DNA from: an uncultured Marinilabiliaceae bacterium
Lineage (GTDB): Bacteria; Bacteroidota; Bacteroidia; Bacteroidales; Marinilabiliaceae
Reading direction: 5' to 3'
DNA length: 11,312 nucleotides
Assembly (NCBI GenBank): GCA_905235955.1
Contig: CAJONN010000058.1
Span: forward strand, 1-11,312
The translations under genes were made by a program, and so were the position numbers. Position 1 is the stretch's first letter; the number at the start of each line of letters is the position of its first letter. Positions 1-11,312 of the stretch are shown here, one piece after another. The notes under the pieces were generated by a model. It ran no database searches. It saw only the letters and a list, made by a program, of their open reading frames with translations, and was not told where the DNA came from.

Positions 1-192
1 AAACTCATTCATAGGGCAACCAATATGTTTGATAATCGCACGTTGGCTATTCATCCGTATAGCACCATTTTTGGTCTTTTTAGCAAAGAAGAGAAAGAAA
101 AAATGGACGTCAGAAACACCACCATACGCATATCGGTGGGTTTAGAAGATGTAAATGATTTGTTGAACGACATAAAACAAGCATTATCATGA
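1..192 (+). CDS. Trans-sulfuration PLP enzyme (Cys/Met metabolism family), 3' end only
   Basis: Frame 1 is open from the window edge and encodes the last 63 residues of a protein whose 5' part lies outside. The tail contains IRISVGLEDVNDLLNDIKQA, which matches the closing signature of the Cys/Met metabolism PLP-dependent family (cystathionine gamma-synthase, O-acetylhomoserine sulfhydrylase, methionine gamma-lyase), usually written IRLSVGxEDxxDLIxDL. The upstream HPYST is the position of the family's usual HPAS/HPAT. The PLP lysine and the substrate-specifying residues are outside the window, so the exact reaction cannot be chosen. The stop codon overlaps the start of the PatB/MalY gene in an ATGA arrangement, so the two are probably co-transcribed and translationally coupled. 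With a C-S lyase next to it, a gamma-synthase role feeding methionine synthesis is the simplest reading, but that is inference. Confidence 0.85.
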   Translation, partial: KLIHRATNMFDNRTLAIHPYSTIFGLFSKEEKEKMDVRNTTIRISVGLEDVNDLLNDIKQALS

Positions 193-1394
193 GGTACGAT
201 TTTGACACAATAATAGACAGAACGGGCAGTGGCGACCTGAAGCACTGCGTATTGGGCGAACGCTACGGACGCTCAGACCTATTGCCACTATGGGTGGCTG
301 ATATGGATTTTGCTACGCCATCATTCATAATAGATGCTTTGCGCAAACGCCTCGAACATCCCATATTGGGCTACACCATAACTCCGCCAGAACTTTGGCA
401 AGTGGTGAGTCAATGGATAGAGCACCAACATGGTTGGCATACCAACGAAAAGTGGTATACCTTTATACCCGGTGTGGTAAAGGGCATAGGCATAGCCATA
501 AATCTGTTTGTAGCACCTGATGAGAAGGTTATTATTCAGCCGCCAGTGTATCATCCATTTCGCCTAACGCCACAAGGCAACGGGCGCAAAGTGGTGTATA
601 ATCCGCTACGTCAGCTATCTGATGGTAGCTACGAGATGGACTTTGAGAACCTTGCACAAGTGGCTGACGACAAATGTCGCTTGCTGATACTGAGCAATCC
701 GCACAACCCAGCCGGAATATGTTGGGACCGTGAGACATTGCGCCGTTTGGCACACTTCTGTGCCGAGCGCAACATAATAGTAGTGAGCGATGAGATACAC
801 TCAGATTTGGCACTGTTTGGCAACAAGCATGTGCCATTTGCATCGGTGAGCGATGAAGCAGCACGATGTAGTATAACACTTGGTGCTCCATCAAAAACAT
901 TCAACATTGCCGGCGTAATAAGTTCGTATGCCATAGTGCCCAACGAGCTATTGCGCCGCAAATTTTTTTCGTGGCTCGACGTTAATGAATTGAGCGAGCC
1001 TCATCTGTTTGCGCCAATAGCCACAATAGCTGCATATACGCAAGGTGCTGAGTGGCTACAGCAGCTGAAAGAGTATTTGGAAGATAATATACGCTTTGTA
1101 GAGCAATATTGTAGGCTCTACATACCAAGCATCAAGCCCGTAAGGCCTCAAGCCTCGTTCTTGGTATGGCTCGATTGCCGAAACTTATATTTAAATCAGT
1201 TGCAAATAGTTGATTTGTTTGTAAATAAAGCTCATTTGGCTCTCAACGATGGCGCAATGTTTGGCGCAGAGGGCGAGGGCTTTATGCGCATCAACATTGG
1301 TGCCCCCCGAGCTATTTTGGCCGAAGCATTGACTCGTTTGTCTATGGCCGTTGAAGAGCGTTGGGCAGAGGAGAGCCTCTTGGTAGCTATTTAG
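189..1394 (+). CDS. patB: PatB/MalY-family PLP-dependent C-S lyase (cystathionine beta-lyase type)
   Basis: This is a complete 401-residue fold-type I aminotransferase-like enzyme, the normal length for PatB/MalY. Family signatures in order are the N-terminal LPLWVADMDF (about 32-41), PHNPAG (171-176), SDEIHSDL (200-207), the PLP-lysine motif SKTFNIAG with K236, and FMRINIG with the probable carboxylate-binding R367. Family members cleave cystathionine or other cysteine S-conjugates to a thiol (homocysteine), pyruvate and ammonia in the cytoplasm. The start at 189 gives the canonical N-terminus MRYDFDTIIDR and overlaps the preceding trans-sulfuration gene by 4 bases, indicating coupled translation. 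Together the pair would form a cystathionine route to homocysteine. The protein has a normal sulfur content (6 Met, 7 Cys by my count), unlike the downstream operon. The in vivo substrate could be cystathionine or another thioether. Confidence 0.9.
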   Translation: MRYDFDTIIDRTGSGDLKHCVLGERYGRSDLLPLWVADMDFATPSFIIDALRKRLEHPILGYTITPPELWQVVSQWIEHQHGWHTNEKWYTFIPGVVKGIGIAINLFVAPDEKVIIQPPVYHPFRLTPQGNGRKVVYNPLRQLSDGSYEMDFENLAQVADDKCRLLILSNPHNPAGICWDRETLRRLAHFCAERNIIVVSDEIHSDLALFGNKHVPFASVSDEAARCSITLGAPSKTFNIAGVISSYAIVPNELLRRKFFSWLDVNELSEPHLFAPIATIAAYTQGAEWLQQLKEYLEDNIRFVEQYCRLYIPSIKPVRPQASFLVWLDCRNLYLNQLQIVDLFVNKAHLALNDGAMFGAEGEGFMRINIGAPRAILAEALTRLSMAVEERWAEESLLVAI

Positions 1395-1509
1395 TATAAT
1401 TGTGCAAGATATTTACACTGTTAAAAGTGTTTAATATTGGTAGTTTATACTATAAAATATATGTATTGTAGTGAGTATTTTGTTAAGATGGCGATAATGT
1501 AGAGTGAAT

Positions 1510-1541
1510 ATACCAAACATTTGGTATGCTAAAATACCAAA
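1510..1541. promoter_or_regulatory. Operator-like element: three ATACCAAA half-sites
   Basis: Bases 1510-1527 form a perfect inverted repeat, ATACCAAA-CA-TTTGGTAT. A third exact copy of ATACCAAA lies at 1534-1541, in the same orientation as the first and 24 bases from it. The cluster ends 8 bases upstream of the predicted -33 element at 1550. Perfect symmetry, the extra half-site and the position just upstream of a promoter suggest a binding site for a dimeric or multimeric transcription factor, with placement more typical of an activator. The regulator is not encoded in the window and I do not recognise the motif. By context it would answer to sulfur supply, which is inference. Confidence 0.55.
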
Positions 1542-1549
1542 AGGCGGTT

Positions 1550-1581
1550 ATTGTCAAACCTTGCTACACTGCCTATCTTTG
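1550..1581 (+). promoter_or_regulatory. Bacteroides-type promoter of the leader-binding protein-susCD-uroD operon
   Basis: TATCTTTG at 1574-1581 matches the Bacteroides -7 consensus TAnnTTTG exactly. ATTG at 1550-1553 fits the -33 element (consensus TTTG) with 20 bases between TTG and the -7 box, inside the known 19-21 range. Transcription would begin about 7 bases downstream, giving an AT-rich untranslated leader of roughly 50 bases before the small ORF at 1637. The three ATACCAAA half-sites lie immediately upstream. No comparable promoter was seen in the later spacers of the operon. Confidence 0.65.
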
Positions 1582-1636
1582 CATTGTTGAAATTAATCAA
1601 ATAAAAGAAAGTAATAACAAATAAAAAACAAACATC

Positions 1637-1774
1637 ATGAAAAGAATGAATATCAATAATATGCGAATGTGTTGTATGCGAATGTGCATTGCTCAAGTAG
1701 AAGAATCTCAGAGAATAGACAACCTCATCCATAACCATAAAAAACGACAATATTATGATCAGCAAAATATATAG
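1637..1774 (+). CDS. Met/Cys-rich leader peptide ORF (45 codons), putative sulfur-responsive leader
   Basis: This short ORF (ATG 1637, TAG 1772-1774) is the first reading frame after the promoter and ends inside the next gene. Residues 9-17 read MRMCCMRMC. By count, 6 Met and 3 Cys fall in the first 17 residues and none in residues 18-45. A 12-base direct repeat TATGCGAATGTG at 1660-1671 and 1675-1686, 15 bases apart, encodes the repeated Met-Arg-Met-Cys unit in one frame. The ORF overlaps the binding-protein start by 20 bases in another frame. Concentrated codons for the amino acids whose synthesis the operon may serve are the hallmark of attenuating leader peptides, and Cys-rich leaders upstream of sulfur genes are known in other bacterial phyla. 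I see no intrinsic terminator before the next gene, so control would be by translational coupling or ribosome stalling rather than classical terminator attenuation. A stable small protein is the alternative. Confidence 0.7.
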   Translation: MKRMNINNMRMCCMRMCIAQVEESQRIDNLIHNHKKRQYYDQQNI

Positions 1775-2663
1775 CATCGCAACACTCATTGTAGCATCAC
1801 AAGTAGCAATATCAGCTCAAGAACAAATCAACTTGCAAGTGTCGAACTTTGTACGTCCACTTGCTGAAAAATGGGCAGCCGAATATTCTCAGACAGGCGC
1901 TAACGTCAAAATCAACTTTGTAAGCGCATCGGCTACCAACGATCCCAACACCATAAGCCTCGTAACATCAGACAACATCAGCACCAACGATGAAGCAGTA
2001 TATTTTGGCAGATATGCCGTACTGCCAGTGGTGAACAAAGACTCAGAGGCAGAGCAACTTCTCAATGGCAAACGCTTGAATGCCAAAAAACTGAAAAACA
2101 TACTCTTTGTAAAAGACGAATTTGCCGACGACGACAACAAGAAGGAGAGCAAAGCCGAACGCGACCTTCACATATACAGCGGCAACGGCAAATTGTCAGT
2201 ATCGCGCTCATACGCTGCACACTTTGACCATGTAGCAGCTGACTATAAAGGCAAGCGCATCTCGGGCGACGACAGTTTCTTGAATTTAGCCCTCCGCAAA
2301 GATCCTCTTGGTATTACAATCAACATTATATCAAACATCTTCGACCTCGAAACGCGACAATTGCGTAGCGAACTCTCACTTGTAGCACTCGACCTTGGCA
2401 GGCACGCTGACGATATATTTGACTCTGCCAACCTCGATAATATTATAGCATTGCTTGAAAACAACAACTTTGACGAAATAGCAATAGGCAACGCAGGCTT
2501 GGTCTATGACCACAACAATACTACTCTCAATAACTTTGTAAGTTGGATTTTGACCAACGGAAATCAGTATGTGCATGAGTTTGGCTTGCTACAACTACCA
2601 CAGAAAGATTTGGCTGCACAACTACATCAAATCGGACTACGTGGTGAGTTGGCTCTCAAGTAA
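1755..2663 (+). CDS. Secreted PstS-like substrate-binding protein (type 2 periplasmic binding fold)
   Basis: This 302-residue protein starts with a Sec signal peptide (hydrophobic core about 5-20, likely cleavage AISA|QEQ after residue 21). There is no lipobox, so it should be soluble in the periplasm. The mature part resembles the PstS-like branch of the periplasmic-binding-protein superfamily: an N-terminal region with VSNFVRPLAEKWAAEY, a middle LRKDPLGITINI, and a C-terminal stretch (FVSWILTNGNQYVHEFGLLQ) like the final helices of PstS. Phosphate as ligand is not implied and no ABC permease or ATPase genes are nearby. Leading the susCD operon, it may receive the ligand from the outer-membrane transporter and pass it to the secreted URO-D-like proteins; this is inference. 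Strikingly, it contains no Cys and no Met except the initiator. Its start lies inside the Met/Cys-rich leader ORF, which implies translational coupling. Family-level confidence is moderate because similarity was judged by eye. Confidence 0.7.
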   Translation: MISKIYSIATLIVASQVAISAQEQINLQVSNFVRPLAEKWAAEYSQTGANVKINFVSASATNDPNTISLVTSDNISTNDEAVYFGRYAVLPVVNKDSEAEQLLNGKRLNAKKLKNILFVKDEFADDDNKKESKAERDLHIYSGNGKLSVSRSYAAHFDHVAADYKGKRISGDDSFLNLALRKDPLGITINIISNIFDLETRQLRSELSLVALDLGRHADDIFDSANLDNIIALLENNNFDEIAIGNAGLVYDHNNTTLNNFVSWILTNGNQYVHEFGLLQLPQKDLAAQLHQIGLRGELALK

Positions 2664-2731
2664 AAAACTCTTTTCCTAAAAACCTCTATTTTATCCCTTA
2701 ATTTTTAATTATTTAATTTTCTTGAGGTTGT

Positions 2732-2761
2732 GTTGGTGCCAATGTGATATTTGGCACCAAC
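2732..2761 (+). promoter_or_regulatory. Perfect RNA hairpin in the spacer before susC
   Basis: The 125-base spacer between the binding-protein stop and the chosen susC start holds a perfect 11-bp inverted repeat, GTTGGTGCCAA (2732-2742) and TTGGCACCAAC (2751-2761), with an 8-base loop. It is not followed by a T-tract, so it is not a typical intrinsic terminator. It ends 11 bases before a purine-rich ribosome-binding-like AGAGGAG (2773-2779). Likely roles are RNA processing or stabilisation that sets the ratio of binding protein to transporter, or a protein-binding palindrome in DNA. No promoter matching TAnnTTTG was seen in this spacer. Confidence 0.5.
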
Positions 2762-2788
2762 GTAGCCCCCAGAGAGGAGATTGTATGT

Positions 2789-5700
2789 ATGAAACTTTTA
2801 TCTAACAAAGTATTTTTTACCACCATTGTAGCACTGCTCGCCACGGTAGTGTCAGTGGCACAAACAAAAATTACAGGTAGGGTTGTTGATGCACGAACTG
2901 GCGACCCAATAATAGGCGCAACACTTGTACCAACTGAAGGTGGCGAACTTGGTACGGTAACTGATTTTGATGGCAATTTCAATCTCACAACCAAAGTAGA
3001 ACTGCCGCTCACACTGCGTGCATCATACATTGGCTACAGAGCTCAGGAAGTAGAAATATATGACGCTTCAGAACCAGTAGAGATAGGACTTGCCGACGAC
3101 AACAACAAGATAAACGAAGTGGTGGTGATAGGCTACGGCGCACAAAAACGCCTCGAACTTACAAGTAGCATATCAAGCGTAGGTAGCGATTTGCTACACC
3201 AGCAGAATACCTCAGTAGAGAGTGCACTACAAGGTGCTGTGGCTGGTCTAAACATTACGCAAACATCAGGACAGCCGGGTGCAGCAAGCATCATTCGCAT
3301 ACGTGGTGGCAACTCCATTACGGGCGGCAACGAGCCACTGTATGTGATCGACGGTTTTATTGTCTATAACGATCCGGCATCGACACGTACCGGTGCCTCA
3401 GGTAGTGATGCTACGCTGGACCCACTGTCTTTTCTCAACCCAGCCGATATTGAGAGCATTGAAGTGCTGAAAGATGTGTCAGCAACAGCTATATATGGTA
3501 CACGTGGTGCCAATGGCGTTATCATCATCACCACCAAAAAAGGCTCGCATGGCAAAAACAACATCAGCTATACCGGCAACTTTGGCTGGAGCACTATATA
3601 CAAAAAGCTCGACTTCCTCGATGCATGGCAATGGGTTGATATATGGAACGAACTACAAGCCAGAGGCGAAATAAAAGATCCGCTACCACAACCTACCCAA
3701 AGCTACGATTGGCAAGATGAAGCCTTGCGTACAGCCTTCTCACAAGAACATCAGCTCTCAATTGTTGGTGGCGATGAAATATCGCGCTATAGCATCAGTG
3801 GTAGTTTCAAAGACCAAGAGGGCATCATCATCAACACAGGCATTAGGCGCTATGCTTCGCGCATCAACTATGAGCGCAATGTGTTCAAAAACCTCCTTGT
3901 AGGAGCTAACGTCAACGGAGCATTCAACAGAATGACAGGCATGTCAGACCAAAGCTCAATGTTTTCGGCCAACAACTGGTATGGCGCCATATCACACATC
4001 CCTTATACCTCAATATACAACGCTGATGGATCGTTCAACTATGACCCAACGCCAGTGAGCGTAGACACATACGATGGCAAAGTTGGCAACCCCATCAGCG
4101 ACCTTAAAAACTATGACAGCAAAACAGAGAATGCACGCATATTGGGCTCAGCATTTGCTGAACTTAACATCATACCACAACTCAAACTCAAAGCCAGCAT
4201 AGGTGCTGACATATCGAGCACAAGGCAGAGCTACTACGCACCATCGTACACCACCGACGGCTTGCCCAATCATGGTAAAGCATCAGTAGGACAAACCAAC
4301 ACCAACGTATGGCAGAGCGAATATACTGCCACCTATACCAACCAATTTGATGTGCACTCTGTTACAGCTTTGGTAGGCTTCACAGCACAAAGCACTGATC
4401 GCAGTAGCTTTGCTACAACCTCACAAAACTTTAGCAACGATGCCACAGGCTACGACAATCTTGGCGCTGCAGGCGAAACAAAACCATCAAATAGTAGCCA
4501 TCACAAGAGCACACTGCAGTCGTGGATAGGTCGTCTGAACTACAGCTTCGACTCGCGCTACAACATCTCACTCACACTACGCGCCGATGGTTCGAGCCGT
4601 TTTGGTAGCAACAAACGTTGGGGCTGGTTCCCATCAGTAGGTGCTTCGTGGAATATCGACCGTGAAAAATGGATAAACTTGGGCAGCAATGTAGACTTCA
4701 TTCAGCTACGTGCATCGGTAGGTAGAGTGGGCAACCAAGAGATAGGCGACTATCAGTATGTTGCCAACGTAGAACCTCGCACAGTTATAATCGACAATAA
4801 ACGCGATGTAAGTTATGTGGTTACCAACTTGCCCAACCCAGACCTCAAATGGGAGACAACAACATCATACAATATTGGCCTGAGCACCGGATTCTTCAAA
4901 AACCGACTTACTGCAACATTCGATGCCTACTACAAAGAGACCAACGACTTGCTTCTCAACGCTCCGGTAGAACAGGTAACAGGTTTCTCTACAATACTAC
5001 GCAACGTAGGTTCGGTAACCAACAAAGGTATAGAATTTGAGCTTGGTGTAGTATTGATTGATAACAAATCATGGCATTGGAACATCAACGGCAACATAGC
5101 TCACAACAAGAACGAAGTAACAAGCTTGGGCGGTGCCGACTACTTTATCCTCTCACACGGATATACCAACCCACTCATAGTAAAAGTTGGTGAACCTCTG
5201 GGCTCATTCTACGGCTACAAATTCAAAGGCATCATTCAGTCTGACGAAGACCTCTCGCAGTTGCCAACACAAACACACTCAGTGGTGGAACCCGGCAACC
5301 CGAAGTTTGAAGATGTCAATGGTGACAACGTAGTAAACGAGAGCGACCGCGTAGTGCTTGGCAACATTCAGCCAGACTTTACATACGGCTTCAACACCAA
5401 AGTAACATATAAAAATTGGGATCTCTTTGTAAGCGCAAGCGGTAGCCATGGCAACAAACTCTTCAACGAATTGGCTTGCCGACTCGACCGTGGCAATGGC
5501 TACTACTACAACCCACTTGCTGAAGTAGCTGACCGTTGGACACCAACCAACCCAAGCAATACCATACAAAAGGCAAGCACAGCTACCAGTATTTATACTG
5601 ATGACCGCTTTGTAGAAGACGCTTCGTACCTAAAGATACGCAACATACAATTGGGCTACACCATACACACGCCTAAACTTACCAAAGACGCTACCTTCCG

Positions 5701-5869
5701 CATCTATGCATCATTGCAAAACTTCTTCACCATCACCAACTATAGCGGCTACGACCCCGAGGCTAACCGTCCGGGTGGCGATGAAACCAACGCACTCTAT
5801 CAGGGCATAGATAATGGTGCTTATCCATCATCAAAAACAGTGCTCGTCGGACTCAATATAACACTTTAA
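2789..5869 (+). CDS. SusC/RagA-family TonB-dependent outer-membrane transporter
   Basis: The protein has 1026 residues, typical for SusC. It shows a signal peptide (likely cleavage VSVA|QTK after residue 24), a carboxypeptidase-regulatory-like beta domain (about 27-103, ITGRVVDARTGDPIIGATLV), the SusC hallmark NEVVVIGYGAQ (109-119), a plug domain with VIRIRGG-like IIRIRGGNS and LYVIDG, and a long beta-barrel ending in the family-like VLVGLNITL. It would work with the adjacent SusD lipoprotein to import a ligand across the outer membrane using TonB energy. I chose ATG 2789 because it gives a clean signal peptide and has AGAGGAG 9 bases upstream. The in-frame GTG at 2744 would put 15 unnatural residues before it and lies in a hairpin. 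Only 4 Met and 1 Cys are present by count, far below normal for this size. No glycan enzymes accompany it, so the substrate is probably not a polysaccharide. Confidence 0.95.
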   Translation: MKLLSNKVFFTTIVALLATVVSVAQTKITGRVVDARTGDPIIGATLVPTEGGELGTVTDFDGNFNLTTKVELPLTLRASYIGYRAQEVEIYDASEPVEIGLADDNNKINEVVVIGYGAQKRLELTSSISSVGSDLLHQQNTSVESALQGAVAGLNITQTSGQPGAASIIRIRGGNSITGGNEPLYVIDGFIVYNDPASTRTGASGSDATLDPLSFLNPADIESIEVLKDVSATAIYGTRGANGVIIITTKKGSHGKNNISYTGNFGWSTIYKKLDFLDAWQWVDIWNELQARGEIKDPLPQPTQSYDWQDEALRTAFSQEHQLSIVGGDEISRYSISGSFKDQEGIIINTGIRRYASRINYERNVFKNLLVGANVNGAFNRMTGMSDQSSMFSANNWYGAISHIPYTSIYNADGSFNYDPTPVSVDTYDGKVGNPISDLKNYDSKTENARILGSAFAELNIIPQLKLKASIGADISSTRQSYYAPSYTTDGLPNHGKASVGQTNTNVWQSEYTATYTNQFDVHSVTALVGFTAQSTDRSSFATTSQNFSNDATGYDNLGAAGETKPSNSSHHKSTLQSWIGRLNYSFDSRYNISLTLRADGSSRFGSNKRWGWFPSVGASWNIDREKWINLGSNVDFIQLRASVGRVGNQEIGDYQYVANVEPRTVIIDNKRDVSYVVTNLPNPDLKWETTTSYNIGLSTGFFKNRLTATFDAYYKETNDLLLNAPVEQVTGFSTILRNVGSVTNKGIEFELGVVLIDNKSWHWNINGNIAHNKNEVTSLGGADYFILSHGYTNPLIVKVGEPLGSFYGYKFKGIIQSDEDLSQLPTQTHSVVEPGNPKFEDVNGDNVVNESDRVVLGNIQPDFTYGFNTKVTYKNWDLFVSASGSHGNKLFNELACRLDRGNGYYYNPLAEVADRWTPTNPSNTIQKASTATSIYTDDRFVEDASYLKIRNIQLGYTIHTPKLTKDATFRIYASLQNFFTITNYSGYDPEANRPGGDETNALYQGIDNGAYPSSKTVLVGLNITL

Positions 5870-5879
5870 CTGAAGCATT

Positions 5880-7472
5880 ATGAAAAATAAAAATATAAGC
5901 ATCATGAGAAAATCAGCAACAATATATATAGCAGCAGCTGGATTACTAATAAGTGGTTGCGCTGACCTCGACCAAGACTCGATAAGTAGCATCAGCATAG
6001 ATAGTTTTTACAGCAATCAAGCCGACATCGAAGCAGCTGTGAAGGGCATATATCAAGAGTTTACAACCGATGGCATGTATGGCATCTTCAACAATCAGCT
6101 CATCTACCTCAACGACTTGCAAACCGACTATGTGAAAGCCGGCGCACAAACCAACTCGGCACACATACGTGAGGTTGCCAACTTTGCAGTGCAGCCTACC
6201 AACCTCTTTGTTGAGGCTGCTTGGAAACATCACTACACAGCCATCAATCGCGCCAATATAGTGATAGATAAAACTTCTGAAGCATCGTTTATCGATGCAA
6301 AAACAAAAGAGAACTACATCAACGAAGCACGATTCTTGAGAGGCTACCTCTACTTCAACCTTGTGCGATATTTTGGTGGCGTGCCCATCGTATTGCACGA
6401 TGCTGATGGTCAGGGCGCACCTCGCAACACTATTGATGAGGTGTTTGAGCAAATAGTTGAAGACTTTACTGCGGCAGAAAATTTGCCAGCCGACTATACC
6501 AATCTCGATAGCAAAGCCAGCAGTTTGGCTGCCACATCGTTCCTTGCAAAAGTATATTTGGAGTGGGCACAAACAGCCAGCGAAAAAGGCAAAGCTAACC
6601 AACACGAATATTATCTCAAAGCTGTGCAATATGCGCAAAAGGTAATAGACTCTGGCAAATATCATCTGCTTGATAAATTTATAGATGTTTGGTCGCTCGA
6701 CAAGAAAAATGGTCCGGAACACATCTTCACAGTAGAGCACGACCGCACCATCAACGGCAACACTACAGGCCACTGCACATTTGCAACCAACTGGAGCGAC
6801 ACTGAGCCTGTACTCCTTGCCACCAGCGACCGCTACTACCTTGAAATGGATCCACATGACCAACGTCGTGATGGTTCATGGGCAAAGAAACTCTATGACC
6901 CTGAGAACGACGATGACTTCGTATTCACCATACCTCGTTTCAGAAAATACATCGACTCGCTCAACTATGCCAACCCAGCATCATCAGGCAATGCAGCCGG
7001 ACAATCGACCAACAGCGCTGTAATACGCTACGCTGAAGTGCTCCTTATCAAAGCTGAAGCCGAAAACGAAGCCAATGGTCCGACAGAAGCCGCTTACGAT
7101 GCCATCAACCAAATACGCAAACGCGCATATTGGAGCCCATACTTCAATATACAAAACAACCCAACCGATGGTACTCCACTTGAGCTTAGCGGACTGACAC
7201 AAGAAGAATTTCGCCAAGCAGTGCGCAAAGAACGTTGGAACGAGTTTATACTCGAAGGACAACGTTGGTTCGACCTCAAGCGTTGGCACATACTTGTGAA
7301 ATATGTAAAAGAAAATACGCCAGAAACTGAGAAAACAAAATTGCAAAACATCTCGAAGCGCAACTATTACCTCCCATTGCCTCAAGAGCAGATAATACTA
7401 AACCCCAACCTGACGCAAAATTGGGGCTACAGTGGCGAAACTGGCGACGGACCCTATGCCGACTTTCAGTAA
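5880..7472 (+). CDS. SusD/RagB-family outer-membrane substrate-binding lipoprotein
   Basis: This 530-residue protein follows susC after 10 bases. The N-terminus has a lipoprotein signal ending in the lipobox LISGC, with the acylated Cys at residue 27. A second in-frame ATG at 5904 gives a shorter, equally plausible signal sequence. The SusD signature is clear: INEARFLRGYLYFNLVRYFG (about 148-167) followed by GVPIV, the TPR-like helix region AEVLLIKAEAENEA, then RKERWNEFILEGQRWFDLKR and the terminal YLPLPQEQIILNPNL. SusD proteins form the lid of the SusC barrel and bind ligand at the cell surface. The protein has 4 Met and 2 Cys by count, one Cys being the obligatory lipidation site, so it shares the operon's sulfur-poor composition. 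The ligand cannot be read from the sequence. Confidence 0.95.
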   Translation: MKNKNISIMRKSATIYIAAAGLLISGCADLDQDSISSISIDSFYSNQADIEAAVKGIYQEFTTDGMYGIFNNQLIYLNDLQTDYVKAGAQTNSAHIREVANFAVQPTNLFVEAAWKHHYTAINRANIVIDKTSEASFIDAKTKENYINEARFLRGYLYFNLVRYFGGVPIVLHDADGQGAPRNTIDEVFEQIVEDFTAAENLPADYTNLDSKASSLAATSFLAKVYLEWAQTASEKGKANQHEYYLKAVQYAQKVIDSGKYHLLDKFIDVWSLDKKNGPEHIFTVEHDRTINGNTTGHCTFATNWSDTEPVLLATSDRYYLEMDPHDQRRDGSWAKKLYDPENDDDFVFTIPRFRKYIDSLNYANPASSGNAAGQSTNSAVIRYAEVLLIKAEAENEANGPTEAAYDAINQIRKRAYWSPYFNIQNNPTDGTPLELSGLTQEEFRQAVRKERWNEFILEGQRWFDLKRWHILVKYVKENTPETEKTKLQNISKRNYYLPLPQEQIILNPNLTQNWGYSGETGDGPYADFQ

Positions 7473-7535
7473 AAAAACAACAACAAACAAAAAGCAAATC
7501 AAAATATTTATCACACATCAAAATCGTTATAGACA

Positions 7536-8576
7536 ATGAAACAAATTAGAGTAAAACTTACAGCCCTCTCGCTAATAGCAGCAGGCACATTGGCAACAGC
7601 ACAAGCACAGCAAACAGCTGATAGCAAACGTGAACGCATCTTGCAGGTATTAGACCAAAGTCGCCCAAACGAGTATGTTCCGGCAGCCTTCTTCCTCCAC
7701 TTTGAAAACAAACTCGGACGTAAGGCAGTGCAAGACCACAAAGACTTCTATCGCGCTACAGATATGGACTTTGTGAAGGTCTTCTACGAAATCGGACTGC
7801 CCAAACTCGACATCAATTCGGGCAAAGATTGGGAAAAGGTGCCAGTGTATGATGAAGCTTTCTTTGAACCACAACTTGCAGTTATTGAAGATCTTGCACG
7901 TGAATTTAGAGGCGAAGCATTCATATTGCCAACCGTATATTCGCCATTGGCACTAGCACACCAAACACTTGGTGGTGGCAAAGACCTTAAGAAACTTGCT
8001 GAAGAAAATCCTAAAGCATTTGGTCAGGCCATCAAAAACCTTTCGCTCAGCATCGAAAACTACATACGTGCAGCTCGCCGCAGAGGTGCCGATGGATTCT
8101 ACATCTCAACACAAGGTGGCGATGGCAACTCATTGCCAATAAAGATATGGAACGAGCAAGTGCGCCAATGGGACAAACACGTGTCTGAAGTAGCTGCAGA
8201 AATAGGCATCATCAACATACTTCACATCTGCGACTATGGTACACCATTCAAAAATGCTGAAGCACTTTACACCTTTGCTGACTATCCGGCAAGCATCATC
8301 AACGTGCCACTCAACTTCTCTGACGGCAGCACACTCAACCTCAAAGAGGCTCAAAAACGTTTTGGTCGTCCAATATTTGGAGGCTTAGAGCGCTTGGGCG
8401 TAATAGCTAATGGTACACTCGAAGAGGCTAAAGCTGCAGTTGACAAGGTACTTGAAAATGCATCGCCAAACTTCATTCTGGGTGCTGACTGCACAGTGCC
8501 CGGCTCTACCGACTGGGATAAGCTACGTGCCGTTATCGACTATGCACACACATGGCGCAAAACACACAATAAATAA
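7536..8576 (+). CDS. Secreted URO-D/corrinoid-thiol methyltransferase-superfamily protein, paralogue 1 (H-x-C...C site)
   Basis: This 346-residue protein has a Sec signal peptide (likely cleavage near ATAQA, residue 24) and no lipobox, so it is probably periplasmic. The mature part looks like a uroporphyrinogen decarboxylase-fold TIM barrel: RRRGADGFYISTQGGDG (181-197), ILHICDYG (228-235) and FILGADCTVPGSTDW (313-327). The arrangement H230-x-C232 plus C319 matches the H-x-C...C zinc site of MtaA/MtbA-type methylcobamide:thiol methyltransferases, which heme-pathway HemE lacks. These are the only two cysteines in the protein, and there are only two Met (1 and 77). A 63-base spacer without a recognised promoter or terminator separates it from susD. 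Export is unusual for this superfamily. A thiol-directed step on an imported organosulfur compound, such as demethylation or C-S cleavage, is my inference; substrate and cofactor are unknown. Confidence 0.8.
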   Translation: MKQIRVKLTALSLIAAGTLATAQAQQTADSKRERILQVLDQSRPNEYVPAAFFLHFENKLGRKAVQDHKDFYRATDMDFVKVFYEIGLPKLDINSGKDWEKVPVYDEAFFEPQLAVIEDLAREFRGEAFILPTVYSPLALAHQTLGGGKDLKKLAEENPKAFGQAIKNLSLSIENYIRAARRRGADGFYISTQGGDGNSLPIKIWNEQVRQWDKHVSEVAAEIGIINILHICDYGTPFKNAEALYTFADYPASIINVPLNFSDGSTLNLKEAQKRFGRPIFGGLERLGVIANGTLEEAKAAVDKVLENASPNFILGADCTVPGSTDWDKLRAVIDYAHTWRKTHNK

Positions 8577-8637
8577 TATTTTTTCTTCTTTAAACACCCA
8601 ATCAATAATAGATATAAACCTTAAAAACTTTGAACTT

Positions 8638-9714
8638 ATGAAAAACAACATTAGCAAAGTACTGAGCAAATCGTTGCTTGCAGCTATGATGGCTGCTACC
8701 ATGGGTCAAACCGCCCTCGCACAAAACGTTGACGACTACAACAAACGCGAACTTCTTCTTCAGGTGCTCGACCAAAGCCGACCAAACGACTACGTGCCTG
8801 TATTCTTCAATATCCACTTCAAAGATAAATTCGGATACAAAGCCGTACAGTCGCACATCGAGTGGTTCAAAACAACACACGTCGACTTTGTAAACGTGAA
8901 GTATGAATTCCTCCCCAAAAAGGTTGAAATTAGCAGTCCGGCCGATTGGAAGAAGATAGCAGCAGTAACACCCGACGAATGGCAAGAGCAAATAGGCGTA
9001 GTAAGAGAATTGGCCAAAGAACTCAAAAACGAAGCCTTCATCATCCCAACAGTCTACTCGCCATTGGCATTGATCAACCAAATAGTGGTATTGCCCGGTG
9101 TCGACGACAAGAACAAAAAGCAGAAGCTCTTCGACCTGATAAAGAAAGACCCTGAAGCTGTAAAACCAGCCTTGGAAGTCATTACCCAAAGCCTCGTATA
9201 CTACATACGTGAAGCACGCAAAGCTGGTGCTGACGGCTTCTACATCTCAAGCCAAGGTGGCGATGCTGACTCGTTTGGTGGCAAGCTCTTCCGCGAACTC
9301 ATCAAACCCTACGACCGCCAACTCTCTGACGTAGCCAACGAAATTGCTCCATTCAACATCTTGCACGTATGCGAAGGTGGTGGACAATTTACAGCCGATT
9401 CGTTCAACGACTATGTTGACTATCCGGGTAGCATCGTCAATGTGCCATATCATGAGTTCAAGGGCAAGTCTTTGACAACTAAGCAAGTAGCTGCACTCTT
9501 CAAGCGTCCGGTTTTGGGCGGATTGGCTCGTAAGAGCAAAATATATACAGGCTCACTTGAAGAGGCTAAAGCTGAAGTTGATGAGATACTCAAGAATGCT
9601 CCTGACAACTTTGTGCTTGGCGCCGACGACTCTATCCCCAACGATTCTGACCCAGAAAAGCTACGTGCACTTGTCGACTATGTTCACACTTGGCGCGTAA
9701 CTCATAAGAAATAG
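8638..9714 (+). CDS. Secreted URO-D/corrinoid-thiol methyltransferase-superfamily protein, paralogue 2 (H-x-C...D site)
   Basis: The protein has 358 residues from ATG 8638. The open frame extends further upstream into the preceding gene, but only this start yields a signal peptide (hydrophobic core about 10-22, cleavage near TALA|QN at 28). It is clearly paralogous to the preceding protein, sharing LLQVLDQSRPNDYVP (41-54), IIPTVYSPLALINQ, AGADGFYISSQGGD, ILHVCEGG and a matching C-terminus. H243-x-C245 is kept, but the third ligand position is Asp (D331 in VLGADDSIP) where paralogue 1 has C319. Asp can ligate zinc, so the site could be retuned or inactive. The mature part contains no Met and one Cys; the three non-initiator Met are all in the signal peptide. 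Tandem duplication followed by divergence is evident. The pair may form a heterodimer or handle different substrates. It ends the operon, with a terminator downstream. Confidence 0.8.
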   Translation: MKNNISKVLSKSLLAAMMAATMGQTALAQNVDDYNKRELLLQVLDQSRPNDYVPVFFNIHFKDKFGYKAVQSHIEWFKTTHVDFVNVKYEFLPKKVEISSPADWKKIAAVTPDEWQEQIGVVRELAKELKNEAFIIPTVYSPLALINQIVVLPGVDDKNKKQKLFDLIKKDPEAVKPALEVITQSLVYYIREARKAGADGFYISSQGGDADSFGGKLFRELIKPYDRQLSDVANEIAPFNILHVCEGGGQFTADSFNDYVDYPGSIVNVPYHEFKGKSLTTKQVAALFKRPVLGGLARKSKIYTGSLEEAKAEVDEILKNAPDNFVLGADDSIPNDSDPEKLRALVDYVHTWRVTHKK

Positions 9715-9824
9715 CCATTTTCTCGTAGTTGTTATTTTGGAAGAAGCTTCTAAATATGTAAAAAAATCTTTGTTAAATATATTCAATTAAAATTTAGGAG
9801 TTTCATTAATTTGCAATCTGATCT

Positions 9825-9871
9825 GATGAGGGTTTTCGGCATCAAAAATATCCGAACCCTCATCGTTTTTT
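9825..9871 (+). terminator. Intrinsic terminator of the susCD-uroD operon
   Basis: GATGAGGGTT (9825-9834) pairs perfectly with AACCCTCATC (9855-9864). The stem extends by CGG/CCG after a two-base bulge, the loop is about 12 bases, and a run of six T follows at 9866-9871. It lies 110 bases after the second URO-D-like gene and directly before the symporter promoter, so it separates the two transcription units. The 110 bases before it contain no gene. They hold a 10-base palindrome AGAAGCTTCT and AT-rich sequence without clear function. Confidence 0.85.
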
Positions 9872-9884
9872 AGTTGTTAGTTTT

Positions 9885-9915
9885 TTTGAGAGCCTATATA
9901 ATACCAATATTTTTG
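9885..9915 (+). promoter_or_regulatory. Bacteroides-type promoter of the symporter gene
   Basis: TTTG at 9885-9888 and TATTTTTG at 9908-9915 match the -33 (TTTG) and -7 (TAnnTTTG) consensus elements exactly, with 19 bases between them. The predicted start is near 9922, about 17 bases before the ATG at 9939. This supports independent transcription of the symporter and supports 9939 rather than a downstream codon as its true start. Confidence 0.7.
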
Positions 9916-9938
9916 TAGCCAAAAAATTTATACTGATA

Positions 9939-11131
9939 ATGAAGAAACTTTTATTGTGGATTGGTGCCCTCCTTATAGGCACTATTCTCGGACTGCTCAG
10001 GTTGATTTTATTGATGTTGCAGCCACATTTGTAGCTACTATTTATACACGTTTGTTTCAGCTTTTGGCTGTGCCAATTATTGTTTTAGCCATTATTACAA
10101 CGCTTGCTTCGCTTGGCAAAAGTGCTGAAGCTGGGCGCATTTTTGGTCGCACTATAATCTATACGCTACTCACTACTTTGGTTGCTTCGTTGGTTGGGTT
10201 GGCACTTTTTGTTGCAATAGAGCCGGGCGTATTGTCGCTCCCAGCATCTGACGTAGAGGGTAGTGCTGCCGTTCAAGCTCCATCGCTCTCTTATACTGAT
10301 CATATACTCTCAGTGGTGCCCAACAACGTAGTGCGTCCGTTTCTCGAAGGTAATGTGCTTTCGCTTCTTTTGCTTGCTGCAGCAGTGGGTATAGCTTTGT
10401 CGCATCTGCCTGTTTCTGAGTCTCGTACAGCAGTGCTCAACTTTTTTCAGGGTTTGCAAGATGTAATTTTTTTGCTCATCAAAGCACTTATTTGGGCATT
10501 GCCTTTGGGCATTGTGGCCTTTGCAGCGCAGTTGGCTTCACAGCTTAGTGCTGGCGTTGTTGCCGACTCTATTGGTAAGTATGTGTTGGTGGTTTTGGGT
10601 GGCAATCTTGTTCAGTTTTTTGTTGTTTTGCCACTCTTCTTGCTCTCGCGAGGACTCAATCCGGTGCGCACATTGCGTCTTATGTTGCCAGCTGTGCTTA
10701 TGGCATTGTTTACCAAAAGTAGCGCAGCCACACTTCCAGTAACAATATCATCAGCCGAAAATCGCTTGAAAGTCAATCCAAAAGTGTCGCGTTTTGTTTT
10801 GCCAATATGCACCACAATCAATATGAATGGTTGTGCAGCTTTCATACTTGTTACATCGCTTTTTGTTTTGCAACAAGGTGGCGTAGTGCTCACTTGGCCA
10901 CTGATGCTCACATGGGTTCTTATTTCAGTAGTGTCGGCAGTGGGCAATGCAGGTGTGCCAATGGGCTGCTACTTCCTTACGCTTTCGCTCATGTCGGGCA
11001 TGGGAGTGCCCGTAGCAGTAATGGGCATCATATTGCCAATCTATACCATTATAGATATGGTTGAAACTGCAGTCAACGTTTGGAGCGACTCGTGTGTGTG
11101 CGCTCTTACCAATCACGACTTGAAGTTGTAG
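9939..11131 (+). CDS. DAACS-family (GltP-like) cation symporter, apparently frameshifted near the N-terminus
   Basis: This is a multi-spanning inner-membrane protein of the dicarboxylate/amino acid:cation symporter family. ATG 9939 opens a good first membrane segment (MKKLLLWIGALLIGTILGLL), but that frame stops at 10032-10034. The family sequence resumes at about 9998 in another frame (QVDFIDVAATFVATIYTRLF) and runs to 11131, so a -1 shift, meaning loss of 1 or 1+3n bases, near 9993-10001 is likely. A GTG at 9956 opens the second frame but gives an unnatural polar start. Hairpin 1 shows KSSAATLPVTISS; TM7 shows TTINMNGCA (family NMDGT); the last segment shows IIDMVETAVNVWSD. Aligned to GltPh, D394, N401 and D405 are kept, the substrate-carboxylate residue R397 is Glu (codon 11063-11065), and D390 is Tyr. 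Glutamate or aspartate as substrate is therefore unlikely. The protein has normal Met/Cys content. It may be a sequencing error, a phase-variable gene or a decayed gene. Confidence 0.8.
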
Positions 11132-11148
11132 CCGTTTCTCTGACGAAA

Positions 11149-11202
11149 AAATAGCACTAATATTTGGGTGTAAATACCTGAATATTAGTGCTATTTATTT
11201 TT
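11149..11202. terminator. Strong stem-loop terminator after the symporter
   Basis: AAATAGCACTAATATT (11149-11164) and its exact reverse complement (11181-11196) form a 16-bp stem with a 16-base loop that can add a few inner pairs (GGGT/ACCT). It is followed by ATTTTTG-like T-rich sequence on the + strand. On the - strand it is also followed by a T run (the A-tract at 11146-11151), so it could work in both directions. It begins 17 bases after the symporter stop. Confidence 0.8.
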
Positions 11203-11230
11203 GCTGTTAACTCAAGTTTCGCAAGTGAAG

Positions 11231-11285
11231 TAGCTCCGAAGGAGCGAAAGAATACAGGCAGGGGTGAGCGCAGCGTAACCCCTGC
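11231..11285. repeat. GC-rich double-hairpin intergenic repeat
   Basis: Two stem-loops lie close together. GCTCC-GAA-GGAGC is at 11233-11245. GCAGGGGT (11258-11265) pairs with ACCCCTGC (11278-11285) around the loop GAGCGCAGCGTA. Short tandem hairpins of this style, with gctccgaaggagcgaaag and a caggggt...acccctg stem, resemble dispersed intergenic repeats common in Bacteroidales chromosomes. Only one copy is present in this window, so repetition is recalled rather than seen. The surrounding 11203-11312 contains no gene. Confidence 0.5.
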
Positions 11286-11312
11286 TAATTATGCGCCCTC
11301 CACAATATTAGC

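Follow-up and report, generated by a model that had tools for sequence, protein, structure and literature searches.

A probable sulfur-starvation acquisition operon with a SusC/SusD importer and exported URO-D-fold proteins in anaerobic gut Bacteroidales

Contig CAJONN010000058.1 of an uncultured Marinilabiliaceae bacterium (assembly GCA_905235955.1), analyzed here over its positions 1 to 11,312 (the window), carries at 1510 to 9714 a Cys/Met-rich leader, a PstS-like periplasmic binding protein (PBP), a SusC/SusD pair and two exported URO-D-like proteins. This gene set was proposed in an initial annotation of the letters alone, and family matches together with predicted folds confirm it. The locus is likely to be a sulfur-starvation acquisition operon of anaerobic gut Bacteroidales, and we read it as a SusC/SusD locus repurposed for sulfur, with parts of known kinds. 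Five computational tests support the sulfur-starvation reading of the initial annotation: the leader, the protein composition, a shared operator, the sulfur genes that neighbor this operator elsewhere, and the absence of above-cut-off PF01507 matches from four host genomes.

The proteins of the locus are depleted of sulfur, as the initial annotation had stated. Expressed as the Cys plus Met share of residues with the initiator excluded (C+M), mean values across related loci are 0.19% for PBP (n = 33), 0.43% for SusC (37) and 0.84% for SusD (41), versus 3.84% for 192 comparison open reading frames (ORFs) of at least 200 amino acids and 4.12% for the 76 of these with a crude signal-peptide call. 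The URO-D-fold proteins U1, U2 and U3 average 1.02% (38), 0.28% (7) and 1.11% (12). In the window, PBP (1755–2663, + strand) has no Cys and its initiator is the only Met; the SusC-type TonB-dependent outer-membrane transporter (2789–5869, +; TIGR04056, 879.6 bits) stands at 0.39% and the SusD-type lipoprotein (5880–7472, +; PF07980, 132.3 bits) at 0.95%. Five other SusD proteins of the same genome, which we call G000 and which is 81% complete, lie at 2.0–3.9%, with a 150-residue fragment at 0.67%.

Low sulfur content is not a property of the families themselves. SusC-family matches in three isolate genomes fell at 121 places (E up to 0.001, some below the cut-off), and 30 of these, excluding the locus SusC of the third isolate, were analyzed. 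The three lowest of the 30 are two SusC proteins from this locus (0.19 and 0.68%) and one from a second operator-preceded cluster (0.29%); the other 27 average 2.28% with a minimum of 1.71%. For URO-D-family proteins the mean is 0.97% in related loci (n = 62, maximum 2.72%), versus 5.12% (minimum 2.15%) for eight from other contexts and 6.23% for a further one. This contrast indicates that low sulfur tracks the locus rather than the family. Two URO-D proteins outside such loci, from L048 and L050 (2.15 and 2.72%), fall within the in-locus range.

A 45-residue leader peptide rich in Cys and Met is encoded at 1637–1774 on the + strand, and its reading frame overlaps the start of the PBP gene by 20 nucleotides in another frame. 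We scored leaders as the Cys plus Met count in 12 residues of any short ORF starting within 250 nucleotides upstream of a gene, with PBP starts refined by rule and control starts left as called. Scores of at least 6 were obtained for 30 of 33 PBP genes in the fetched loci (a typical run is MKTMMMNMRMCCCCCSSMQMM; the window leader scores 7), versus none of the 456 control ORFs in the same loci that are 150 amino acids or longer, whose maximum is 5. The proposed co-occurrence of a Met/Cys leader with susCD-URO-D loci is therefore found, and a short ORF of this composition directly upstream of the first structural gene is the arrangement looked for in leader control by amino acid supply. In 29 of the 30 cases the leader ends inside the PBP gene, 50–71 nucleotides past its start, with a single frame offset throughout. 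The number of leader codons ahead of PBP ranges from 37 to 54 in 28 of 31 sequences and is larger in three, and the frame nonetheless stays constant, as predicted if selection maintains the overlapping ORF. Pairwise differences among leaders are only moderately higher at third codon positions (1185) than at first and second positions (849 and 874). TGT accounts for 102 of 140 leader Cys codons and for 879 of 1851 in the background, a comparison whose chi-square is inflated because the loci are related.

From these features the control region appears to sense how much cysteine and methionine is available. When the window was scanned in a simple way, the + strand showed nothing resembling a terminator from 1394 to 2663, and translational occlusion is therefore preferred over classical attenuation. 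Classical attenuation is no more than disfavored by this lack of a terminator-like hairpin from the PatB gene to the end of PBP and by the low consensus-fold energies of the upstream region, which were computed without a shuffle control. A +1 frameshift joining leader to PBP was rejected in the window because the PBP frame contains stops between the leader and the PBP start. An Rfam scan returned two matches only, both far below gathering scores. Across 61 genomes the pattern ATGTGYTGYTGYTGYTG occurs at three places in two genomes, none recognized as a leader in the ORF listing.

Alignment of upstream regions revealed an 18-bp palindrome ahead of a Bacteroides-type promoter. The window carries the putative operator ATACCA-N6-TGGTAT exactly at 1510–1527 (strand not assigned), and 24 bp downstream, at 1534–1551, a degenerate second copy with two mismatches to the longer pattern abuts the -33 element; a degenerate copy lies at a similar position in several relatives (for example L038 and L040). 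The promoter, TTG-N20-TATCTTTG(C) at 1551–1582 on the + strand, follows the Bacteroides consensus. Within 450 nucleotides upstream of PBP (for loci lacking PBP, of SusC), ATACC-N8-GGTAT is exact in 27 of the 35 loci with enough sequence and present with one mismatch in seven more (34 of 35 in all, L051 being the exception). TTG-N17..22-TAnnTTTG follows the loosened operator in 28 of 33 loci, and 25 of the 28 have it 39–41 nucleotides from where the operator begins; a control of 5000 random 110-nucleotide windows, anchored differently, held this promoter pattern in 41.

The operator also connects the locus with sulfur genes. Both exact sites of G000 lie upstream of a PBP gene. In the isolates tf2-5, khp7 and Tc2-24, nine exact sites adjoin PBP (3), CysK (2; L089 with 447 bits and L102 identified by sequence), MetY (1; L110, 636 bits) and TonB-dependent outer-membrane genes (3). 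Eight of the nine are intergenic, and the ninth (L109) falls in the first 25 nucleotides of an ORF call that is probably overlong. Among 60 relatives, 29 of 31 exact sites were inspected, 18 in ORFs and 11 intergenic, and nine of the 11 intergenic sites adjoin sulfur genes or PBP/SusC: cysteine-synthase-kind PALP enzymes at four (two pairs of like genes, in G002 and G003), Cys_Met_Meta_PP enzymes at two, a NIR_SIR sulfite/nitrite reductase at one and a divergent PBP/SusC pair at two (L141). A looser form of the operator precedes CysK-like genes in the fetched loci L008, L022, L029, L030 and L037, SDF symporter genes in L008, L016, L018, L030 and L035, and MoeB/DsrE-like sulfur-relay genes in L019, L023, L030 and L036 (DsrE_2 and MoeB models match the corresponding gene pair in L098); a few additional looser sites in these loci have no sulfur-type neighbor. 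Operator-linked CysK proteins (L089, L102 and four more) have a C+M of 1.27%, and operator-linked MetY proteins (L110 and L148) 0.23%. In Tc2-24 (L118, G426:C8:238500-258400), one operator stands directly before a SusC-SusD pair (0.59 and 0.73%), and another before a TonB-dependent receptor and an HMA-domain gene followed by a SusC-SusD pair (0.29 and 1.06%), the pairs being in tandem.

Three of these operator sites deserve separate mention. A CysK-MetY pair lies behind the operator at L148:7367-9654, where the sulfur-stripped MetY is expected to be cytoplasmic. The second operator-preceded PBP gene of G000 (L116, G000:C232:1-3073) is followed by the contig end just past PBP. In the same-genus genome G012, an exact operator sits 64 nucleotides from the NIR_SIR gene (L133), and some genomes of the genus may thus keep sulfite reduction under the same control.

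With U1 as query, a contig scan found 47 loci, predominantly from rumen Prevotella and otherwise from Tannerellaceae, one Planctomycetaceae and one Anaerolineales metagenome-assembled genome. ORF calls place SusC in 40, SusD in 44, PBP in 34 and an SDF symporter in 33 of these loci, a number of them being short contigs. Rumen Prevotella and relatives repeat the order PBP-SusC-SusD-U(1 to 3)-SDF, so that the two URO-D genes originally described hold for the window and become one to three elsewhere. In three loci from Tannerellaceae, SusC-SusD-U occurs with Tat-like signals (judged by eye), PBP is missing and no leader scores 6; the operator is still found 122–269 nucleotides upstream of SusC. 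The gene set therefore recurs across genomes, and neither a lack of conservation nor conservation in contexts unrelated to sulfur, the outcomes named beforehand as contrary to the proposal, was observed. Distant exported URO-D relatives outside SusCD loci (L069–L073) share with this locus no neighbors that we recognized except an SDF gene, which in L071 lies about 5 kb from the URO-D gene.

The Bacteroidales hosts probably cannot assimilate sulfate. PF01507 scores above its cut-off in none of four genomes (G000 and three isolates), versus all 14 controls. The ATP sulfurylase family PF01747 is likewise absent from five of five genomes, which adds little because few controls carry it (five of 14, with the Bacteroides control negative).

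U1 (7536–8576, +; PF01208, 60.3 bits) and its paralog U2 (8638–9714, +; PF01208, 73.8 bits) were both judged by eye to be exported. The predicted model of U1 has the URO-D fold (pLDDT 88.6), and its H230, C232 and C319 align with the H, C and C of MtaA (4ay7), presumably zinc ligands. H230 and C232, which form an HxC motif, are both kept in 66 of 66 aligned relatives, and the third Cys in 58 of 66; all eight members of the U2 group have Asp in its place and U2 itself keeps the HxC. Neither protein reaches the MtaA/CmuA family cut-off (TIGR01463, 35.4 and 44.2 bits versus 235.4) or that of HemE (TIGR01464, 27.6 bits for U2 versus 302.95, U1 not being listed). The conserved residues suggest that the U1 site is a metal site that binds thiols or thioethers. 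URO-D proteins may process an organosulfur compound in the periplasm, as the initial proposal has it. That U1 is an active C-S or methyl-sulfur enzyme is a tentative suggestion that leans toward doubtful, and is the weakest link of the whole reading.

The predicted model of PBP has a type II periplasmic-binding-protein fold closest to PstS; export was again judged by eye. Sequence searches against PDB gave no significant match (best E 0.094; E 0.3 and worse in a second search), and thus the fold assignment rests on the predicted model. A Pfam search confined to the window found no ABC component among its proteins. The SDF-family symporter (9939–11131, +; PF00375, 299.8 bits) is of the glutamate/aspartate/neutral amino acid type; NCBIfam does not name its substrate, and among solved structures its nearest chains are those of an aspartate transporter and of other carriers for glutamate or neutral amino acids.

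The enzymes behind SusC-SusD are not constant. In the same-genus locus L147 (G003:C24:179500-199400), two operators lie between a divergent PBP (C+M 0.00%) and SusC-SusD-M14 carboxypeptidase (0.76, 1.25 and 0.23%), with no URO-D gene in the stretch; the cargo thus varies and URO-D is not obligatory. In three Prevotella loci (L010:12103-14436, L012 and L023), an ATC-hydrolase-like protein and an M20 amidohydrolase follow U1, the pair having been searched against families in L010 only. The amidohydrolase is sulfur-poor (1.16%), the ATC-hydrolase-like protein has a Tat-like signal by eye, and the pair possibly provides a periplasmic route to cysteine.

These components suggest an operon with two layers of control. 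A putative regulator would bind ATACCA-N6-TGGTAT upstream of the -33 element, as the conserved architecture implies, and would connect the operon with sulfur genes such as CysK and MetY. When charged Cys-tRNA or Met-tRNA is plentiful, ribosomes might translate through the leader past the PBP start and prevent initiation at that site, whereas when it is scarce, ribosomes would stall at the Cys/Met run and PBP could be translated. SusC and SusD, by family assignment, would import a sulfur-containing compound through the outer membrane, and PBP, given its predicted fold, may capture this compound or a product of it in the periplasm. U1 and its paralogs might then process the compound at an H-x-C...C site that aligns with those of zinc thiol methyltransferases, although both the metal and the reaction are conjectural. 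A resulting sulfur amino acid or thiol could enter through the SDF symporter or be used by the C-S lyase and CysK/MetY. The observed stripping of Cys and Met may allow these proteins to be made when sulfur is missing.

Several observations weigh against this reading. SDF is not sulfur-poor (4.40%, n = 32), nor are the neighboring ATC-hydrolase-like protein (3.18%), YtkA lipoprotein (3.61%) and accessory outer-membrane protein (3.24%), and two operator-linked CysK-like enzymes stand at 3.20 and 3.37%. L022, L023 and L043 are leaderless, and the leader of L031 stops early with no overlap into PBP. The exact operator shows no clear genome-wide enrichment, with 33 sites in 61 genomes versus 28 for the reversed pattern, and at two mismatches G000 has 136 versus 151; the operator discriminates by position only, not by genome-wide number. 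Several sites lie between divergent genes of which the other is apparently unrelated to sulfur, and of the 11 intergenic sites in relatives, one is next to a TetR-like gene (by eye) and one next to a GDE_C gene. In U2 the third Cys of the triad is missing, and Pfam calls no corrinoid protein in the window. The PF01507 match of isolate G425 is barely under the cut-off (20.9 versus 22.5 bits), and the incompleteness of G000 bears on the absence of that family. U1 relatives are rare, being present in four of 61 relatives and five of 393 genomes of the order, each count including G000; the other three of the four are two distant URO-D proteins and a match of 22 residues. This last match comes from the same-genus genome G008, where a 34-codon ORF (L004:977-1081) directly upstream of an SDF gene ends in a 73% match to the last 22 residues of U1; it is likely a leftover, and the locus may once have stood there. 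Full-length U1 was found in none of the other 14 same-genus genomes scanned.

Other functions were weighed against the same evidence. Polysaccharide utilization loci (PULs) of Bacteroidota consist of a SusC/SusD importer followed by exported enzymes, and the locus shares both this importer and exported enzymes of locus-dependent type. Adjacent SusC and SusD homologs, a mark of PULs, are present here, and carbohydrate-active enzymes, another, are not: Pfam assigned none of the eight window proteins scanned to a glycan-enzyme family, in agreement with the initial annotation. Since the sulfur content of the locus SusC also lies far outside that of the 27 others in the three isolates, a reading of the locus as an ordinary PUL for glycans whose accessory enzymes are unusual is extremely unlikely; the sulfur-gene operator, the Cys/Met leader and the stripped proteins further set the locus apart. 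Uptake of phosphate or another oxyanion has to be considered because PBP has a PstS fold and no known sulfur ligand, and we judge it very improbable.

Two alternatives would keep the link to thiols or methyl groups, and both appear unlikely. In a thiol-redox or copper-stress regulon, the operator genes would replenish cysteine following damage by metals or oxidants, and the transporters would handle metal-thiol complexes, which could account for the operator that in one isolate precedes a TonB-dependent receptor neighbored by an HMA-domain protein and for the YtkA-like lipoproteins with CC motifs in some loci. However, Met is removed along with Cys, a better fit to sulfur scarcity than to redox damage, Met codons also occur in the leader, and Pfam calls no metal exporter among the window proteins. 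Alternatively, the exported URO-D proteins might move methyl groups for methionine synthesis in a one-carbon or corrinoid locus, with a secondary link to sulfur. The alignment of the U1 triad with that of the methylcobalamin:coenzyme M methyltransferase MtaA and the weak matches to the MtaA/CmuA model would fit such a role, as triad and fold are alike. Yet the scores fall far under the cut-off, no corrinoid partner is called in the window, the U proteins are apparently exported, U2 has lost the third Cys, and the operator is common to cysteine synthase.

For the sulfur-starvation operon, related phenomena have been described elsewhere. Mycobacterial polycysteine upstream ORFs are proposed to be attenuators that read Cys supply (Canestrari et al. 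2020, via PMC9031893), and related passages on short ORFs of consecutive Cys codons ahead of cysteine or sulfur genes are found in PMC4633059. As far as these excerpts go, the arrangement of consecutive Cys codons before such genes is alike; here it occurs in Bacteroidales, includes Met codons and, in 29 of 30 loci, extends into the first structural gene in another frame, and no leaderless start is claimed. Depletion of Cys and Met is reported for proteins of sulfur limitation and assimilation (Mazel and Marliere 1989; Baudouin-Cornu et al. 2001, cited in PMC5513900). Judged from that citing text, the depletion is the same, extended here to an entire, operator-marked outer-membrane uptake locus of gut bacteria. 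Ca. Pelagibacter lacks assimilatory sulfate reduction and depends on organosulfur compounds (PMC5069961). The likeness lies in this dependence; that article reports S-adenosylmethionine riboswitches and no activation of further organosulfur transporters, whereas in the present case regulation appears to act on the import locus itself. Among the matches listed from the open-licence PMC literature, titles and abstracts contain no description of the locus, leader or operator.

More broadly, there is a fair chance, just short of even, that gut Bacteroidales possess a family of loci for sulfur utilization that parallels PULs, in which Cys/Met-poor SusCD pairs, one operator and swappable exported enzymes would obtain sulfur from different organic compounds. 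The exported enzymes would comprise URO-D-fold thiolate enzymes, M14 carboxypeptidase, and M20 amidohydrolase with ATC-hydrolase-like protein; the exported URO-D proteins would represent a periplasmic thiol/thioether-processing branch of their superfamily, and in one branch of the loci the polycysteine/Met leader, running into the first gene, would add a second control. If the proposal is true, SusCD systems, usually read as glycan importers, serve sulfur nutrition too, and sulfur-poor SusC/SusD together with one palindrome offer a way to find such loci in other Bacteroidales. It would also define, for bacteria of the rumen and gut that are seemingly unable to use sulfate, a sulfur regulon that can be tested, with a bearing on organic-sulfur competition, methionine supply and sulfide formation in animals. 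The out-of-frame overlapping leader would be a compact translational switch, and a protein of the URO-D superfamily would be found in the periplasm, an unusual place in the cell for it.

Upstream of the operon, the window begins with the C-terminal end of a Cys/Met-metabolism pyridoxal phosphate enzyme (1–192, +; PF01053, 47.4 bits) of the cystathionine gamma-synthase/O-succinylhomoserine sulfhydrylase class, followed by a PatB-type C-S lyase of the cystathionine beta-lyase class (189–1394, +; TIGR04350, 455.7 bits, cut-off 340). PatB proteins have a C+M of 3.45% (n = 7). The adjacency of trans-sulfuration genes, initially taken as a pointer to sulfur, holds in the window and does not generalize, a PatB-like gene being nearby in seven of 47 loci; the operator common to CysK, MetY and the NIR_SIR gene is the stronger link. 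At the other end, the SDF start codon at 9939 and the main ORF, which begins at 9956, do not share a frame, such that the first 20 residues (MKKLLLWIGALLIGTILGLL, window 9939–9999) are out of frame with the remainder. In relatives the two parts share one frame, and the break reflects either a broken gene or an assembly error.

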